Below, piece by piece: positions 2,382 to 9,813 of a DNA stretch of 60,012 nucleotides. The notes beneath the pieces are model-generated. The model worked only from the letters and a program-made list of their open reading frames with translations. It did no database searches and was not told the DNA's origin. Source of the DNA: Bacteroidota bacterium (GTDB lineage Bacteria; Bacteroidota; Ignavibacteria; Kapaibacteriales; UBA2268); assembly GCA_022707965.1 (NCBI GenBank), contig JAKIZO010000009.1, positions 1 through 60,012 of the forward strand, in the 5' to 3' direction. Made by a program: the position numbers and the translations under genes. How positions within the stretch are numbered: position 1 is the first letter of the stretch; every line of letters starts with the position of its first letter.

Positions 2382-5300
2382 TTATTTCACAACTTTCAAA
2401 GTTGTAGTTGTTGAACGGTTGCCCGCATAAACTACAATGGTGTAGCTACCAGCAGTAAGGTTTCTGAGGTCTAATCTCAATTGGTTTTCACCTGCCGAAA
2501 TTGAACTAAACGATTCAGCAAATACTTTGCTTCCAGCAATGTTGTAGATTTCTACAACTGCGGAACCTTCCACAGGTGAATAGAACGAAATGTATGCAAA
2601 GTCTTTTGCTGGATTTGGCGAAATTGATGTTACTTCGAATGCACCATCACCATCAATTGTTACAACTCTTGTGTTGCTGTATGAGAATTCGCCGTTTTGG
2701 TCAATCATCTTTAATCTATATGCGTATGACTTGCCTGCGGAAACGCTTCTATCGATAACTGGACCGTATTCAGTAGCAACTGCAGAATTGCCTTTTGCCT
2801 TCACTTCATCAATTTTAGCAAATGCACCGATACCGAATTCGTTTACTTTTGCTTTTTCAATATCAAATCTTGATGAATTTACTTCTGATGCAGTTATCCA
2901 GTTAAGTTCAACTCGCTTGCCGACAGCATTAGCATCAAACGAGAAAAGTTCGATTGGAATAATTGTTCCGCCGTTGTTTTGAACGTAGTCCATCGCAGCA
3001 CGAATGAGAGCATCTGCCATTGGGAAGTGTCTCCAATCGAGCCCGAAGTAAATTACATTTGTAAACAGCGACGAGGAAGCAATACACATAATCTTCTGGT
3101 CGAACATAATTGTATCGGGGTCAATGTAGAACATACCAACGCGAGCAACACCTACACCGCTTTCAGTCATATTAACAACATCGCCGACAGGTGCAGGGTC
3201 GCCAAGGAAGCCCGTTGGAACTGCCACAAAATCAATATTGCGAGCAAGTGCGAAGCCACGAACTACCGACAAAGTGTCGAACGGACGAGTTTCTTTTGGA
3301 GTTGCTCTCAATATCTTTTCTGTAAAGTAGGTTCCGTCTAAGTATTGAGGAATACCATTCTGGCGGACTACATCCTGGCTTGCAATGATAAAGTTGCTCT
3401 TATCGTTGAGTTTTCCTTTGTTCAAGAATTTCAAAACATCGCCAATTACGTAGGTCGAATACATTTCATCGTGAGCATCGCCAAAGAAGAGCGAACGATA
3501 CATTGTATAGTTAACCGAGCGTTCTTCCCAACCGCGGCGGTCGAAAATATCGAAGTCGTGGTCTGCTTCTCCCTTCATCTGGAACCAGCCAATTCTCTGG
3601 AATGCAGTAATTAAGGTGTCTGCATTCAAGCGACCAGCGATTTGGTCCATCTGAACGGGTGTTGGGTCGGAAACAGTATCGATATCAACGAAGCTATTTT
3701 CGACTGAAAGAAGCAGGTCGAGCTTAGCACGTTTCAAGTAGAAGCGAACGATTTTATCTTCGAGCACGTTATTCGAAGTCATTTCATCAGGTTGAGCAAG
3801 GCTTACTTTAATTCTATAACGTGGAGTAACGTTCGGCAGCATTGTAGAGAAGTGCTGTGGCACATTGTATCCAACCACCTGCGAGTAAGTCAGCGGAATG
3901 AAGTCATCGTTGTCTTTGCCATCGCCCAAACCGAATACTACAACAGCGTCATCAGTTGGGCTAATCTGAGCAGTTACAATTTTAGGAGCAACTGCGGGAA
4001 TAGTGAAGTTGCCAAGTGTATCTTCGCGGAATATTTCGACTTTAATTTGTGCAGCTGATTGAAGCATATTGCCGTTGTTGCGAACTATTGCTTTTACTTC
4101 GACTGGTGCTTGTGTCATAATGTATTCTGCGTCATTGAAAAGAGATGTTGGACGCAAGTCTTGATAAGCACCAGGAGCAATAATAGAGTGAATTTCGATA
4201 TCATTATTGAGCAATCTGCCATTGAATTCGCAAGCACCGATATCATAACGTTGGTTTGCGAAGCCACGCAAATTGCCATCAATATCATTGCTTACTTCGT
4301 CATATCTTGCACCGCGGTTGTTAATCTTGGAGTTAATTGGTGTTGGATTCGATTTAATTCTCAAATTGCCAGGATTAGCCCCAATCATTTCATGGTCTTG
4401 CAAGAAGTTGTAATCAACAGAATAAATATCGCAACCAGTCCAATATCTCCATTGATTTAATGTTTTAAATTCGCCTGTAAAGCCAAGAGTTAATAAGTTA
4501 CGTTCTACATCCACTTCAATATAGCGGTAATAGTCAATCCCGTCTGCAAGCCAGAATGCATTGCGTTCAATATTAATTCCTTCTGCTTTTGGCTTTTCGT
4601 TGTAATAGAATACTGCTGCTTTTGACTCAACAGAGTTATCAATATCCTCATCCAAAATTGCAATTGCATTATTACCCAAAATTAAGTCTTTGTTCTGCAT
4701 TACAGCCAAACCAACAATATTACCCATGTTGGCAAACTCGTCGTCAGGAATAATAATCGTATTATTGATAATTCTATCTTCACGAGTAAAGAATCCAGGA
4801 GTTGCAGGCGATAGCATTCTATCGTTCAAGTTAGGCACATTCATATTTCGAGCAGTAGCAAGATAAATACCAGCAATATGAGCATCGGCATTATTAACCT
4901 TCAAATCATAAATCATATTATTTACAACAACAAATTTTTCTTTGTCTTTCGGGAAAAATTGAGTGCGGTTGACACCTTCCTGCAATGTGTAAGAAGCCTG
5001 ATCAATTTTCACACCGTAAGTAATGAACGATGATTTAATATTGCTGATTTCGTTACCATCTATTCTAATGTTGTTATTGTGATATCCCAAATATCCAGAT
5101 TTGTCTTCGCCACCGACAATAATACCCGCAGCATCGTTTGTAGTAGCATTAATATTATATATACGGTTCTGAGCAATTAATGTATTTTCTTCGTAACCAA
5201 CGAAAATACCTGCACGGCCAACATTATAAATCTTGTTCTTGATGAATTTATTATTGTTGTTCAAATACTTGGTAATTGTTACTTCTGGACCTCTAATTTT

Positions 5301-7868
5301 ATCCAGCACGCCCAAACCAAGCGAAACAATACCATAACCAAATTTTGTAATTTCGTTGTTTTCGATAATTATATTGCTTATGTTAATGGTGTCCAGTTGG
5401 TAATAGTTGCTTTGAGTACTTACAAAGAAAGGTGGTGTATTTCTCAAAACAAAGCCAGCGGAGTAAGTTCCAGTTGCACGAACATTTTCTTCGAACGTGT
5501 AAACGCTACGGTCTGCGATAAATTCAAATTTTACGTTTGGCAAATTCCAATCATAAGATGTTGTTGTGCTTTCGCCATCAACGATACAGTTTTTAACAGT
5601 AATATTGCGTGAACCAGTGCCGAAATAGAATGGAGCACGGAACATTACCGACGGAGGTGTGTGCATTTTGAAGACTAATGATTTTTGCGGACCACCATCA
5701 AACACAATATGACCATCGCTTGCGGCATAGTCGTTTTTATGCTCGTTCAATACTGAGTTTATTGGAGCAAAGGCTGATGTTTGATTATGATTCTGACCAA
5801 ACAAAATACCAATACCCGAAGCACTGTATAGATTAACCACAACACTTGCACGATTTGCCAGTTTCTGTTGTGATGGGCGAATTATAATTTTTGCATCTTC
5901 CGAAGCACCGATAATCTTGGTTCTCAAATCAAGTGCAGGATAAGGCAAATCAATATTACCCAAATCGTAAACGTCATCTTCTAATTCCAGAACAACCTCA
6001 CTGGTAACGCCTTTCTTGTAAATTTCATCAAACGCTTGCGTCAGACTTGTGAAAGTATTATTACCCGAGCAGGTCGAGCAAACCTTGTATGTGCCTGCTA
6101 ACCCAGATTTAACAACAAACGAAGTTGTGTATGTATTATCAACGGCGTTGCCTTCTTCGGGGTGGTCAATCATAATAGTTGCTGTATATGTGCCAGCAGC
6201 TGCTGGAACAAATTCATTCGGGAAACGAACAATTTTATATGGAGGGAAAGTAGATGGAATAATATCTATATCTGTTTGATCCTGGAAAACTACCTGACCC
6301 TGAGAATTTGTAATAGTAACAGTTGCAACGGCACCGAAAATATCTTCGAAACCATTGTTCTGCACTCTCACGACAACTGGTTGCGGACGCATTTTGTAGT
6401 TTTCGTCGGGTGTTGGAGAAAATAGTGTGTCGGGTTTAGCATCTACGCCATAAGTAACCTTGAAAATATGCGGTTCGCCACCAGTTGGTGGGAAGAAGTC
6501 GTTAGAAGGATTTAAATCCTGAGAATTGAGCAAATAAACTCTCACTCTTGCTTCATATTCGCCAACTTCTGTTGGAGCAAAATTCTGGAAGAACACAGTA
6601 GTATTTGTCCCAGGTTGAAGTGGAGCAATTTTGTTCACCCACACAACGTGTGGAGGTTCGTATACCAACACATTATCTTTGAAAATACGGCATTCAACGC
6701 GGAACGAATCGACGGGATTAATACCCGAATTCTGAACTGTTATTCCAAGTGGAATTGTTGTGCCGCTTAGAGGATATTTTGTAAATTCTTTTTTAAGCGG
6801 GAACGGAATACCAACGGCAACCAGGTCCCAGGGCAGAGCAATATAGAACTTTTGTTGGAAATCTTGCGTTAAATCAGGTCTGCCTTCCACTTCAAATCGA
6901 GAATATATTGTATATTCGCCACTTGAAATACCGGGGTTCGATAAATCAAGTCGACCAGTTGGACCTTCGAGAGGATCAACGTGAGCAGCAATACCTTTTG
7001 CGTGTGTGAAACGATAACGAATTGGGTTCGGGTCGCCAACAATAGTTAATGGAATTCTTGTTACGCTCAAATCGCCTTCAGCAGTAGCAACATAGATTGT
7101 ATCGGGGTTCGGACTTGTCGATGGACCCACGACCGCGTAACTAACATAAACCGTTGGTTGAATAGAAGCACGTTTGATATTAACCGAAGGATGGTTGTTG
7201 TGTTCAAATGGGATTATTGAACCAGCTGTCAGCACTGTTGAAGCTGGAGGATAAATTGCAGTCATTTGAGGGTTTGATAGAATTTCTATTCTTGCATTTG
7301 GGCGGGGAACTGTTCCCGCACTTGTCCCCGAAAATGTTATAGAGCAGCCATCGCCATCGCCATAACGCACGTGTGCGCGTCCGGAAATATTTGTCCCATA
7401 CACTTGAGTAATAGCACCATAGTTCGAATTATTATAGCAAATTTTTACTAATAAGTTCCCACCAGTATAGTTGAAGTAATTATCGGCTTGAAAATTAAAC
7501 TTATTCCAACCAGCAGAAGTTACAGTATATGATGGAGTTGTGTAAACAAGCTGCCATCCAGATGCTACAGGACCTGATATAGAGGTCAATGTCGTATTCT
7601 GCATATAAATTGAGAATCCTGCGTAAGAAGCATACGATGGGCTAATTACATTAATCGAAAACCCTCTAATTAATCCAGGATTGCCACCGGCGCCAATAAT
7701 TTCAGCAGCCGTGTATAAATAAAAGCAAGCTGCATCTGGATTATCATTGAACGGATGAAAACTTGTTACTGTTCCAGTCCCAATCTGAATTTCTTGAGAA
7801 CGAACAGTCCCTGCAAGCACTGAAAGCACTATTGCTACAATGCTAAACCATCTTAAAAATTTTCTCAT
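2382..7868 (-). CDS. Giant T9SS-sorted secreted protein with CARDB-like and beta-helix regions
   Basis: The start is placed at the ATG at 7868 (GAGAGG ribosome binding site 7 bp before it) rather than at the longer open frame. That gives 1828 residues starting MRKFLRWFSIVAIVLSVLAG, a clear signal peptide. After a beta-rich N-terminal third come two CARDB-like adhesion modules (roughly 360-470 and 475-590, for example IPLGITVQNSGINPVDSF). A long right-handed beta-helix follows (roughly 600-1200; NNKFIKNKIYNVGRAGIF and similar repeats). The end is a type A T9SS sorting domain (SISPNPAKDFAYISF ... LKVVK). It should therefore be exported by Sec and the type IX system and anchored or released at the outer surface. 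No catalytic site is recognised; it is most likely an adhesin or matrix protein. It is followed by a strong terminator. Confidence 0.88.
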   Translation of the reverse strand: MRKFLRWFSIVAIVLSVLAGTVRSQEIQIGTGTVTSFHPFNDNPDAACFYLYTAAEIIGAGGNPGLIRGFSINVISPSYASYAGFSIYMQNTTLTSISGPVASGWQLVYTTPSYTVTSAGWNKFNFQADNYFNYTGGNLLVKICYNNSNYGAITQVYGTNISGRAHVRYGDGDGCSITFSGTSAGTVPRPNARIEILSNPQMTAIYPPASTVLTAGSIIPFEHNNHPSVNIKRASIQPTVYVSYAVVGPSTSPNPDTIYVATAEGDLSVTRIPLTIVGDPNPIRYRFTHAKGIAAHVDPLEGPTGRLDLSNPGISSGEYTIYSRFEVEGRPDLTQDFQQKFYIALPWDLVAVGIPFPLKKEFTKYPLSGTTIPLGITVQNSGINPVDSFRVECRIFKDNVLVYEPPHVVWVNKIAPLQPGTNTTVFFQNFAPTEVGEYEARVRVYLLNSQDLNPSNDFFPPTGGEPHIFKVTYGVDAKPDTLFSPTPDENYKMRPQPVVVRVQNNGFEDIFGAVATVTITNSQGQVVFQDQTDIDIIPSTFPPYKIVRFPNEFVPAAAGTYTATIMIDHPEEGNAVDNTYTTSFVVKSGLAGTYKVCSTCSGNNTFTSLTQAFDEIYKKGVTSEVVLELEDDVYDLGNIDLPYPALDLRTKIIGASEDAKIIIRPSQQKLANRASVVVNLYSASGIGILFGQNHNQTSAFAPINSVLNEHKNDYAASDGHIVFDGGPQKSLVFKMHTPPSVMFRAPFYFGTGSRNITVKNCIVDGESTTTSYDWNLPNVKFEFIADRSVYTFEENVRATGTYSAGFVLRNTPPFFVSTQSNYYQLDTINISNIIIENNEITKFGYGIVSLGLGVLDKIRGPEVTITKYLNNNNKFIKNKIYNVGRAGIFVGYEENTLIAQNRIYNINATTNDAAGIIVGGEDKSGYLGYHNNNIRIDGNEISNIKSSFITYGVKIDQASYTLQEGVNRTQFFPKDKEKFVVVNNMIYDLKVNNADAHIAGIYLATARNMNVPNLNDRMLSPATPGFFTREDRIINNTIIIPDDEFANMGNIVGLAVMQNKDLILGNNAIAILDEDIDNSVESKAAVFYYNEKPKAEGINIERNAFWLADGIDYYRYIEVDVERNLLTLGFTGEFKTLNQWRYWTGCDIYSVDYNFLQDHEMIGANPGNLRIKSNPTPINSKINNRGARYDEVSNDIDGNLRGFANQRYDIGACEFNGRLLNNDIEIHSIIAPGAYQDLRPTSLFNDAEYIMTQAPVEVKAIVRNNGNMLQSAAQIKVEIFREDTLGNFTIPAVAPKIVTAQISPTDDAVVVFGLGDGKDNDDFIPLTYSQVVGYNVPQHFSTMLPNVTPRYRIKVSLAQPDEMTSNNVLEDKIVRFYLKRAKLDLLLSVENSFVDIDTVSDPTPVQMDQIAGRLNADTLITAFQRIGWFQMKGEADHDFDIFDRRGWEERSVNYTMYRSLFFGDAHDEMYSTYVIGDVLKFLNKGKLNDKSNFIIASQDVVRQNGIPQYLDGTYFTEKILRATPKETRPFDTLSVVRGFALARNIDFVAVPTGFLGDPAPVGDVVNMTESGVGVARVGMFYIDPDTIMFDQKIMCIASSSLFTNVIYFGLDWRHFPMADALIRAAMDYVQNNGGTIIPIELFSFDANAVGKRVELNWITASEVNSSRFDIEKAKVNEFGIGAFAKIDEVKAKGNSAVATEYGPVIDRSVSAGKSYAYRLKMIDQNGEFSYSNTRVVTIDGDGAFEVTSISPNPAKDFAYISFYSPVEGSAVVEIYNIAGSKVFAESFSSISAGENQLRLDLRNLTAGSYTIVVYAGNRSTTTTLKVVK

Positions 7869-8027
7869 TAATAACCTCTCAAATAGTAACAAAATATATT
7901 TTTATGCTCACTAAATAATTTCAAATAGCAAGTTACATTAAAATTAACAATTTTTATAGAAATAAATATAATGATAATATAACAAATTTATAATAAAATT
8001 GTTACAAATGAAAAATAAAAATAAAAA

Positions 8028-8137
8028 AACCGTTGCTCTGTAAAAAAATTTCAACAAGGGGATGACATTTTCGCTGATTTTTAATCGGCGGGATACAGAG
8101 CAACGGTTGCCGATTGCATCGCTTTTGCGATGTTTTT
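8028..8137 (+). ncRNA. Candidate structured RNA / long leader element upstream of mgtE
   Basis: A perfect 15-bp stem pairs 8028-8042 (AACCGTTGCTCTGTA) with 8094-8108. Inside it, CGCTGATT (8072-8079) and AATCGGCG (8083-8090) form an 8-bp hairpin that contains one U-G pair on this strand; the other strand would have a C-A mismatch. The same right arm (AATCGGC, 8083-8089) is also perfectly complementary to GCCGATT at 8109-8115, just outside the long stem, which would make a pseudoknot. A terminator hairpin follows (CATCGC-TTTT-GCGATG then TTTTT, 8117-8137). TATAAT-like boxes lie at 7967-7972 and 7989-7994. It does not match any riboswitch consensus I know, including the M-box. It could be an independent small RNA or a regulated mgtE leader. 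The strand is favoured but not proven. Confidence 0.5.
8116..8137 (+). terminator. Intrinsic terminator ending the structured RNA before mgtE
   Basis: CATCGC and GCGATG pair around a TTTT loop and are followed immediately by five T residues. It lies about 300 bp before the mgtE start, so it is either the end of a small RNA or an attenuator in the mgtE leader. Confidence 0.55.
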
Positions 8138-8386
8138 AAATACACATTTTTTCTTGATACAAAATAATTGATTTTATTTCTAAAAAAATATAGTCTAAAA
8201 TGTGATTTTATTGTAGTAAAGTTGTATTTCAATTTGTAGTGCTTACCACTACAAAAATTCACTTCAATTTTTTAATATTTTTTGATAATTTTGTTTGATT
8301 TATGTTTAACAAACATTTGAACGAAATGTCCAAATCTGATGATCCTGGCAGTTGGGTTATCTCTTTAATTAACGAAATTATGTAGT

Positions 8387-8416
8387 TGCGGGGATGGTTT
8401 TGCATCTATCTCCGCA
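8387..8416 (+). promoter_or_regulatory. mgtE: 11-bp stem-loop just before the mgtE ribosome binding site
   Basis: TGCGGGGATGG (8387-8397) pairs over 11 positions, two of them G-U, with CTATCTCCGCA (8406-8416) around an 8-nt loop. The mgtE GGAGGT site (8425-8430) begins 8 nt later. No T-tract follows, so it is not a terminator. It may influence translation initiation or mRNA stability. Confidence 0.4.
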
Positions 8417-8433
8417 AAAAGTGTGGAGGTAAT

Positions 8434-9813
8434 ATGCAAAACATCATCATTCTTCCCGAGCTTAAAGAACTTATCGAAGCTAAGGAATTCGATGTAATTA
8501 AAGAAATTTTCTACGATTCTCACTCCGCTGAAATTGCCGAACAAATTTCCGCCCTCGAACCCGAAGAAGCCTGGCAAATAATTGAACTATTCGACAAGCA
8601 CCGCCGTGCCGAAATTTTCAGCTTTTTAGACCTTCAAATGCAGGTCGATATCGCCGAAATTATCGAACGCAACAAACTTGTCGACCTGCTCACAGAAATG
8701 TCCTCGGACGACCGTGTCGACCTATTCAAGCGCTTCCCCGAAGAAAAGCAGGAGCTTATCCTTCCACTGCTCGCACAAGCCGAACGCGAGGATATTCGCC
8801 GTCTTGCGGAATACCCCGAAGGTAGCGCCGGCTCGGTTATGACCTCGGAATACGTTGCTATCCCTGATAATATCACAGTCGATGAAGCTATCCGTAGAAT
8901 TCGATTAGAAGCTTCTCAAAAGGAAACTATATTCTATATATATGTTATAAATGAAAAGCGACAGCTTATTGGATTTGTCTCTCTTACTGATTTGATAATG
9001 GCTCACCCATCCACCCGTATTAAAGACATTATGAAAAAAGACGTTATCTACGTTACAATCGACGAAGACCAAGAAAAAGTTGCTCGCAAAATCCAGAAAT
9101 ACGACTTAATCGCTATACCTGTTGTCAATGGCAACAATGTGTTGGTCGGTATCGTTACTCACGACGACGCTATCGACATCATCACGCAAGAACAAACAGA
9201 AGACCTTGAAAAGTTTATGGCTATCGCTGGTGCTCACGCTGCTGCCGCATACAGCAAAACCCCTGTTCTTACTCACTTCAAAAATCGTGCTGTGTGGGTT
9301 GTTTCGCTGGCTGCAATCGGATTGGTATCCGGAATGATTATTCATTCGTTCGAAAACACTCTGATGAACCTTATGATTCTGGCGCTTTATATGCCAATGG
9401 TTGCCGATACCGGCGGCAATGTCGGCAGTCAGTCTGCTACCGTTGTTTTGCGTGCTTTAGCTTTGGGCGAAGTTACCTTCCGTGATTTTTTCAAGGTTAT
9501 CTGGAAAGAATTTAGAATTTCTCTGTTGCTTGCTTTAGCTCTGGGCTTCCTATCCTGGATAAAGGTTGTATTACTTTCATCCAACTCAGAAATGCCGTTG
9601 AATTTTTCTTTGCAGCAGGTAGGTTTTGTTATTGCAATAGCTTTGTCTTTGCAGGTGGTTACAGCTACTTTAATTGGTGCTACTCTGCCGCTTATCGCAA
9701 CAAAATTCAAGCTCGACCCCGCCGTTGTTGCAAGCCCGGCGCTTACCACTATCGTTGATATTACAGGACTTCTGATTTACTTCACTACTGCTAAATTACT
9801 GTTGGGTATTTAG
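8434..9813 (+). CDS. mgtE: MgtE-family magnesium transporter
   Basis: The start is set at ATG 8434, which has GGAGGT three bases upstream, giving 459 residues, the usual size. The order is the N-terminal helical MgtE_N domain (about 1-130), two CBS domains (about 135-255, GYPEGSAG-like SAGSVMTSEY then a second MKKDVIYV), a connecting helix, and five transmembrane helices (about 285-459). The signature MPMVADTGGNVGSQS of the pore and the DPAVVASPALTTIVD helix are both intact. The family imports Mg2+ (and Co2+), with the cytoplasmic domains closing the channel at high Mg2+. It is monocistronic, divergent from the giant secreted gene, and has an unusually long structured leader that suggests RNA-level control. 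Confidence 0.96.
   Translation: MQNIIILPELKELIEAKEFDVIKEIFYDSHSAEIAEQISALEPEEAWQIIELFDKHRRAEIFSFLDLQMQVDIAEIIERNKLVDLLTEMSSDDRVDLFKRFPEEKQELILPLLAQAEREDIRRLAEYPEGSAGSVMTSEYVAIPDNITVDEAIRRIRLEASQKETIFYIYVINEKRQLIGFVSLTDLIMAHPSTRIKDIMKKDVIYVTIDEDQEKVARKIQKYDLIAIPVVNGNNVLVGIVTHDDAIDIITQEQTEDLEKFMAIAGAHAAAAYSKTPVLTHFKNRAVWVVSLAAIGLVSGMIIHSFENTLMNLMILALYMPMVADTGGNVGSQSATVVLRALALGEVTFRDFFKVIWKEFRISLLLALALGFLSWIKVVLLSSNSEMPLNFSLQQVGFVIAIALSLQVVTATLIGATLPLIATKFKLDPAVVASPALTTIVDITGLLIYFTTAKLLLGI

Follow-up and report, generated by a model that had tools for sequence, protein, structure and literature searches.

The mgtE gene of a Bacteroidota bacterium (UBA2268, Kapaibacteriales) is preceded by a conserved short open reading frame (ORF) that resembles the mgtQ/MgtL type, with acidic residues near its start and an Mg2+ transporter gene downstream. 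The window, as we call the whole stretch of DNA analyzed, comprises 60,012 nucleotides (assembly GCA_022707965.1, contig JAKIZO010000009.1, positions 1 to 60,012 of the forward strand). The first-pass annotation had pointed to a structured RNA at 8028-8137 in front of mgtE, laid out like a riboswitch or a folded small RNA. In the explanation of the whole that we find best, and in which our confidence is slightly better than even, two adjacent features had been merged: a separate small noncoding RNA gene (8008-8160), shared by the genus and a single sister genus and lying outside the mgtE mRNA, and a leader-peptide switch for mgtE (8302-8433), some 150 to 400 bases beyond the element. The earlier guess of RNA control for mgtE seems correct, with the leader peptide, rather than the element, as the probable device. 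We give an even chance to the broader proposal, drawn from sequence comparison, that a family of acidic ribosome-destabilizing leaders controls translation of one mgtE subfamily in several phyla outside the enterobacteria. If true, ribosome drop-off would serve as an Mg2+ sensor for the control of Mg2+ uptake in many bacteria and not as an enterobacterial speciality. Of the two results, the leader-peptide family is the weightier; the element contributes a single new candidate for a lineage-specific RNA.

The mgtE leader ORF and its possible alternative helices

The mgtE gene (plus strand, 8434-9813) encodes MgtE_N, CBS, and MgtE domains as identified with Pfam. Its probable promoter element, TAATTTTG (plus strand, 8286-8293), is invariant in four genomes and of the same type as sites found before tRNA genes in the window. 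Those sites (46722, 46806, 57704, and 2140), 5′ of the four tRNA genes, resemble the Bacteroidota-type promoter TAnnTTTG, several of them with an upstream TTG. Just 5′ of the mgtE promoter-like site there is also a palindrome, TTTGTAGTGCTTACCACTACAAA (8236-8258), partly kept in the genus, with a second copy of TTGTAGT nearby at ∼8213; this may be a repressor or activator site.

The leader ORF (plus strand, 8302-8385) has 27 codons, or 19 when read from the ATG at 8326, and encodes MFNKHLNE-MSKSDDPGSWVISLINEIM. In the short form, DDPG occupies residues 5 to 8, early in the peptide. Across four genomes, the 19 codons and the stop show a single amino acid change against three silent ones, TAG to TAA among them, and the later part, MSKSDDPGSWVISLIN[EV]IM, is kept in all four. 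Four pairing regions can be recognized, all on the plus strand. Region 1 (8342-8354) lies inside the DDPGSW codons and pairs, in the minimum-energy fold, with region 2 (GCGGGGATGG, 8388-8397), which comes right after the leader stop codon; region 3 (CTATCTCCGCA, 8406-8416) forms the strand opposite the Shine-Dalgarno (SD) sequence, and region 4 (8422-8433) holds the mgtE SD, GGAGG. Three mutually exclusive helices are possible in the window, namely, 1:2, 2:3, and 3:4. Helix 3:4 hides the SD and belongs to the minimum-energy fold (−34.8), while helix 2:3, of 12 bp, leaves the SD free with a total of −28.5.

Pairing of the SD strand with an anti-SD strand 3′ of the leader stop recurs among the subfamily loci, with a mean z of −2.4 and 28 of 34 loci below −1. 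When 17 sequences were aligned, 89.7% of the cells in the SD hairpin could pair, compared to 44 to 62% in slid controls, and four pairs were changed on both sides. The alternative helix 2:3 is strong in the window and weak to modest in loci outside the genus (mean z of −1.0). Both the leader ORF family and the SD hairpin are evident at the level of the compared sequences.

From the parallel with mgtQ of Salmonella and mgtL of E. coli, we infer that the mgtE leader aborts translation at low Mg2+; its transcription and translation, the ribosome drop-off, the Mg2+ dependence, and the direction of control are to be read as predictions. By default, the SD of mgtE would be hidden in hairpin 3:4, and a ribosome completing the leader ORF would cover region 2 and so keep 3:4 in place. 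When Mg2+ is low, a ribosome would be expected to pause or drop off early, at the acidic DDPG codons, and to occupy region 1, whereupon helix 2:3 would form and the SD would be freed. A simple accessibility model with a ribosome at the stop codon gave no difference, and with region 1 alone blocked, the fold still hid the SD. The switch would therefore need both steps or be kinetic.

Acidic leaders across one mgtE subfamily

Leaders with comparable acidic stretches precede mgtE in other members of the subfamily. We described them by two motifs, [DE][DE]PG[SP] or M-x-[DN]-[SENG]-[DE]-[GS], which were written after seeing the first 34 loci and which occur in 21 of these 34 (four of them from the genus itself), in none of 64 other mgtE loci, and at ∼0 in shuffled sequences. 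With the motifs fixed beforehand, a hold-out search of 31 new Spirochaetota and Poribacteria loci found them in 4, against 0.005 in shuffles, and turned up the additional variants MDDSGSS, MEESGSS, MDIEGST, and MSSSDGGS. An earlier test that counted acidic residues was weaker, with 9/34 loci against 0.4 in shuffles but also 3/64 controls. Several subfamily loci are without the motifs, and compared to strong destabilizing sequences, most loci have fewer or more widely spaced acidic residues.

The leaders include MNDGEDPGSWKK (L129), MEDPGSTSRK (L121, Poribacteria), EESEDPGSQQ (L122, Desulfobacteraceae), MDDPGSRTQ (L134), MSDSDGSHSC (L124 and L138), MNDSEGGSQP (Desulfoluna), and MEIEGSTGRY (L117, Spirochaeta), and the acidic leader ORFs stop 43 to 71 nt 5′ of mgtE. 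They are found in Kapabacteria/Ignavibacteria, Desulfobacterota, Spirochaetota, and Poribacteria, a distribution of the same layout that would extend the role of the ribosome as an Mg2+ sensor. At three loci (L130, L138, and L132), longer leaders contain two acidic motifs, one initial (MSDSDGSHSC) and one internal (EEPEDPGPR), and the DDPGSW of the window resembles the internal one.

The MgtE protein of the window is 94 to 96% identical within the genus and ∼50 to 62% identical to proteins from Desulfobacterota, Spirochaetota, Poribacteria, and others, while the other MgtE proteins of its family and order reach only 30 to 36% identity with it. The higher identity to distant phyla suggests that mgtE was acquired horizontally, perhaps along with its leader.

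A leader ORF followed by exclusive helices is also the general layout of an attenuator, and the long C-terminal parts of the leaders vary and could carry other signals. The ORF might thus be a classical stalling or amino acid attenuator, or its acidic signature might serve a role other than Mg2+ sensing, for example, in general translation stress. Against this, conservation falls on the acidic beginning of the leader, and the gene behind it encodes an Mg2+ transporter, as with mgtQ and mgtL; we consider these readings possible, though doubtful, and prefer the Mg2+-responsive leader.

Searches of an open-access library brought up no description of acidic leader peptides preceding mgtE. The acidic, translation-aborting leaders of Mg2+ transporter genes, mgtL and mgtQ, have been placed in E. 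coli, Salmonella, and their relatives (PMC8092293, PMC11282234).

The RNA element at 8028-8137

The element lies between two divergent genes, as had been described, and precedes mgtE by position only, since the promoter-like TAATTTTG at 8286-8293 intervenes. On the minus strand, the window also encodes a protein of 1,836 amino acids (2382-7892) that contains Por_Secre_tail and CARDB domains and is probably a substrate of type IX export. The core of the element (8028-8108, drawn here in its plus-strand fold, strand unassigned) contains a perfect 15-bp outer stem (8028-8042 with 8094-8108), an inner hairpin (8069-8079 with 8083-8093), and a small hairpin (8048-8052 with 8059-8063). The first-pass annotation had recognized the outer stem correctly and the inner hairpin as well, although the latter, given as 8 bp, can reach 11 pairs, several of them G-U. 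We also recovered the plus-strand segment GCCGATT at 8109-8115, the exact complement of AATCGGC at 8083-8089, whose pairing and the inner hairpin are mutually exclusive. As had also been noted, it is followed directly by a 7-bp hairpin with a T run (8116-8137), terminator-like on the plus strand and a 5′ hairpin if the RNA is on the minus strand. The plus-strand fold has an energy of −46.3 kcal/mol compared to −23.9 ± 3.3 for shuffled sequences (z = −6.9; 0 of 200 shuffles as low), and z is about −7 whichever strand is folded. With an energy so far beyond the shuffles, the 15-bp stem and the inner hairpin are not due to chance; the 7-nt complementarity by itself is not rare, with ∼0.4 expected in 110 nt as a rough estimate.

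An Rfam search of 8028-8137, which the first-pass annotation had proposed, matched no family at gathering score and gave only chance-level matches at E ≤ 10. The 6S RNA model (RF00013) was unmatched in five genomes, a result to be read with the fact that several control genomes are missed by it too. The element could also be read as coding (ATGACATTTTCG..., 25 codons), but two members of the genus carry a 2-nt deletion that breaks this frame, and we dropped the idea.

When 60 relatives were searched at the DNA level, the element turned up in the genome of the window and in three others of the genus (94 to 97% identity), 5′ of mgtE in all four. A covariance model built from these four copies added one more, in the sister-genus genome G004 (30 bits, E = 6.8e-4), and each genome has a single copy. 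The refined model, R2, returned these copies again; outside the genus, G004 alone was convincing, G013 and G034 giving weak matches. A gapped-pattern scan of the order found nothing convincing beyond the genus and G004, its matches in G105 and G115 looking like chance by eye, and a scan of viral contigs with the conserved core gave 0 matches. BLAST matches to the flank in G005, G016, G024, and G031 were discarded, as sequence and fold, inspected by eye, revealed no such element there.

G004, the sole sequence outside the genus that bears on the element, retains CCGUUGC/GCAACGG, UUCGC, and the inter-stem segment CAACAAGGGGA (8052-8062; UCCCCUUGUUG on the minus strand), which is identical in G004 and has one change in genus member G003. 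Five other outer-stem pairs are replaced in G004 by different standard pairs. Over the whole structure, 6 pairs are changed on both sides, compared to 1.4 in shuffles (0 of 500 as high), a count biased upward by an alignment fitted to the structure; the five stem changes are also visible in the raw sequence. The element, its stem, and its unlinked homologue are thus apparent from sequence comparison.

The GCCGATT segment and the hairpin at 8116-8133 are not conserved in G004. Within the genus, G002 has GCCGAAA with TTTCGGC, a covarying version of the pairing, and G001 retains it partly. Covariation is found in the outer stem across genera and, for the GCCGATT pairing, within the genus only. 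The copy in G004 sits between acylphosphatase-like and aminotransferase-like genes (named from reading their translations), and no close mgtE is listed for this genome, a MAG that is 82% complete. The intergenic region beside this copy also holds tandem repeats with TACGGCTCCGTAGGAGTCGCATT (L070, ∼1270-1400).

The clues to the transcribed strand are divided. The flank at 8134-8217 is conserved in G004 (z = 7.9; BLAST E = 5.2e-6) while the opposite one shows no such conservation (z = 1.4). On the minus strand, the conserved flank is AT rich and promoter-like, with a box that is TTATTTTG in the genus (8167-8160) or TAATTTTG in G004 and resembles the TAnnTTTG-type sites that precede tRNA genes of the window. 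On the same strand, the stem is followed by TTTTTTTATTTTTATTTTT; the T-rich, terminator-like tail there (8027-8008) has a similar counterpart, TTTTTATTTT, in G004. The earlier argument that G-U pairs favor the plus strand is suggestive, several such pairs being retained, and the inner part folds better on the plus strand in all five sequences (z of −2.2 to −2.9 against −0.4 to −2.2), but the conserved flank and the T tail point to the minus strand, which we consider slightly likelier. Just past the promoter-like box, at minus 8134-8146, the genus and G004 have the same AUGUGUAUUUAA, which reads Met-Cys-Ile-stop, possibly by coincidence.

We conclude that the element is probably a lineage-specific small RNA gene and not an mgtE riboswitch, because it is unlinked to mgtE in G004, has lost the switching segment and terminator there, and has a promoter-like site for mgtE downstream. 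It may be transcribed as a minus-strand small RNA, with a promoter-like flank at 8217-8134, the stem at 8108-8028, and the T tail at 8027-8008, and would probably act in trans through its conserved unpaired segment, UCCCCUUGUUG when read on the minus strand and CAACAAGGGGA on the plus strand; its transcription, strand, and trans action are all predicted features. The element (8058-8064) and leader region 2 (8390-8396) share the 7-mer GGGGATG, with an estimated chance of ∼0.08; an RNA made from the minus strand could therefore pair with the mgtE leader (CAUCCCC with GGGGAUG of region 2). The overall duplex of the two, at −41.0, is no better than that of shuffles (−40.2 ± 4.7).

Of the two possibilities raised by the first-pass annotation, a riboswitch or a folded small RNA, a conserved folded RNA with compensatory changes in its outer stem is what stands. 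As a plus-strand riboswitch (8028-8137), exchange between GCCGATT and the inner hairpin would govern the terminator at 8116-8137 and hence mgtE. The exclusive pairings and terminator are present in the sequence, GCCGATT and its partner covary in G002, and G-U pairs and inner fold favor that strand; with the G004 copy away from mgtE and devoid of switching segment and terminator, a promoter-like site and a leader standing between element and gene, and no Rfam match, we judge this very improbable. A plus-strand small RNA that ends at the 8116-8137 terminator and is independent of mgtE is a tentative alternative: it agrees with the better inner folding and the G-U pairs of that strand and with the presence of the terminator in the genus, yet the flank that would lie upstream is not conserved, the conserved one lies downstream, and G004 is without the terminator hairpin. 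The perfect terminal inverted repeat and the different genomic place in the sister genus would also suit a small MITE-like mobile element rather than an RNA gene. This we hold to be extremely improbable given a single copy per genome, conservation that reaches into one flank, and changes that are compensatory rather than decaying. A structure with compensatory changes that is kept among different neighbors, in one divergent sequence, is what a small RNA gene would leave.

Comparison with known Mg2+ transporter leaders

RNA-level control of Mg2+ transporter genes is known from the M-box (ykoK) riboswitch. In agreement with the earlier remark that no M-box consensus is visible, this family was unmatched at gathering score in the window and at E ≤ 10 near mgtE. 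The nearest case in the open-access library is the mgtE motif SRC-65-1, a riboswitch candidate reported in Thioalkalivibrio only (PMC11109978). Like the leader described here, it lies upstream of mgtE, and the foot of a stem takes up the SD and start codon; its published description includes no leader ORF.

The closest parallels in mechanism would be enterobacterial. In Salmonella, early Asp and Glu codons of mgtQ abort translation, upon which helix 2:3 can form and the Mg2+ transporter gene has its hidden SD set free (PMC8092293). The leader of mgtE shares with the mgtQ-mgtB leader a short ORF with early Asp/Glu codons and, in its predicted folds, would share a hidden ribosome binding site of an Mg2+ transporter gene and helices 1:2 and 3:4 opposed to 2:3. 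In contrast, mgtQ has 8 codons and lies between mgtC and mgtB in enterobacteria (PMC8092293), whereas the leaders found here have 19 to 27 or more codons, lie 5′ of mgtE in other phyla, and are predicted from sequence. In E. coli, the EPDP motif of MgtL causes ribosome drop-off when Mg2+ is low, and the mgtE leader resembles this leader of mgtA in E. coli and Salmonella in its acidic, proline-containing start before an Mg2+ transporter gene (PMC11282234 and references therein). While mgtL works through Rho-dependent transcription termination (PMC11282234), the anatomy of the mgtE leader points to control at translation initiation.
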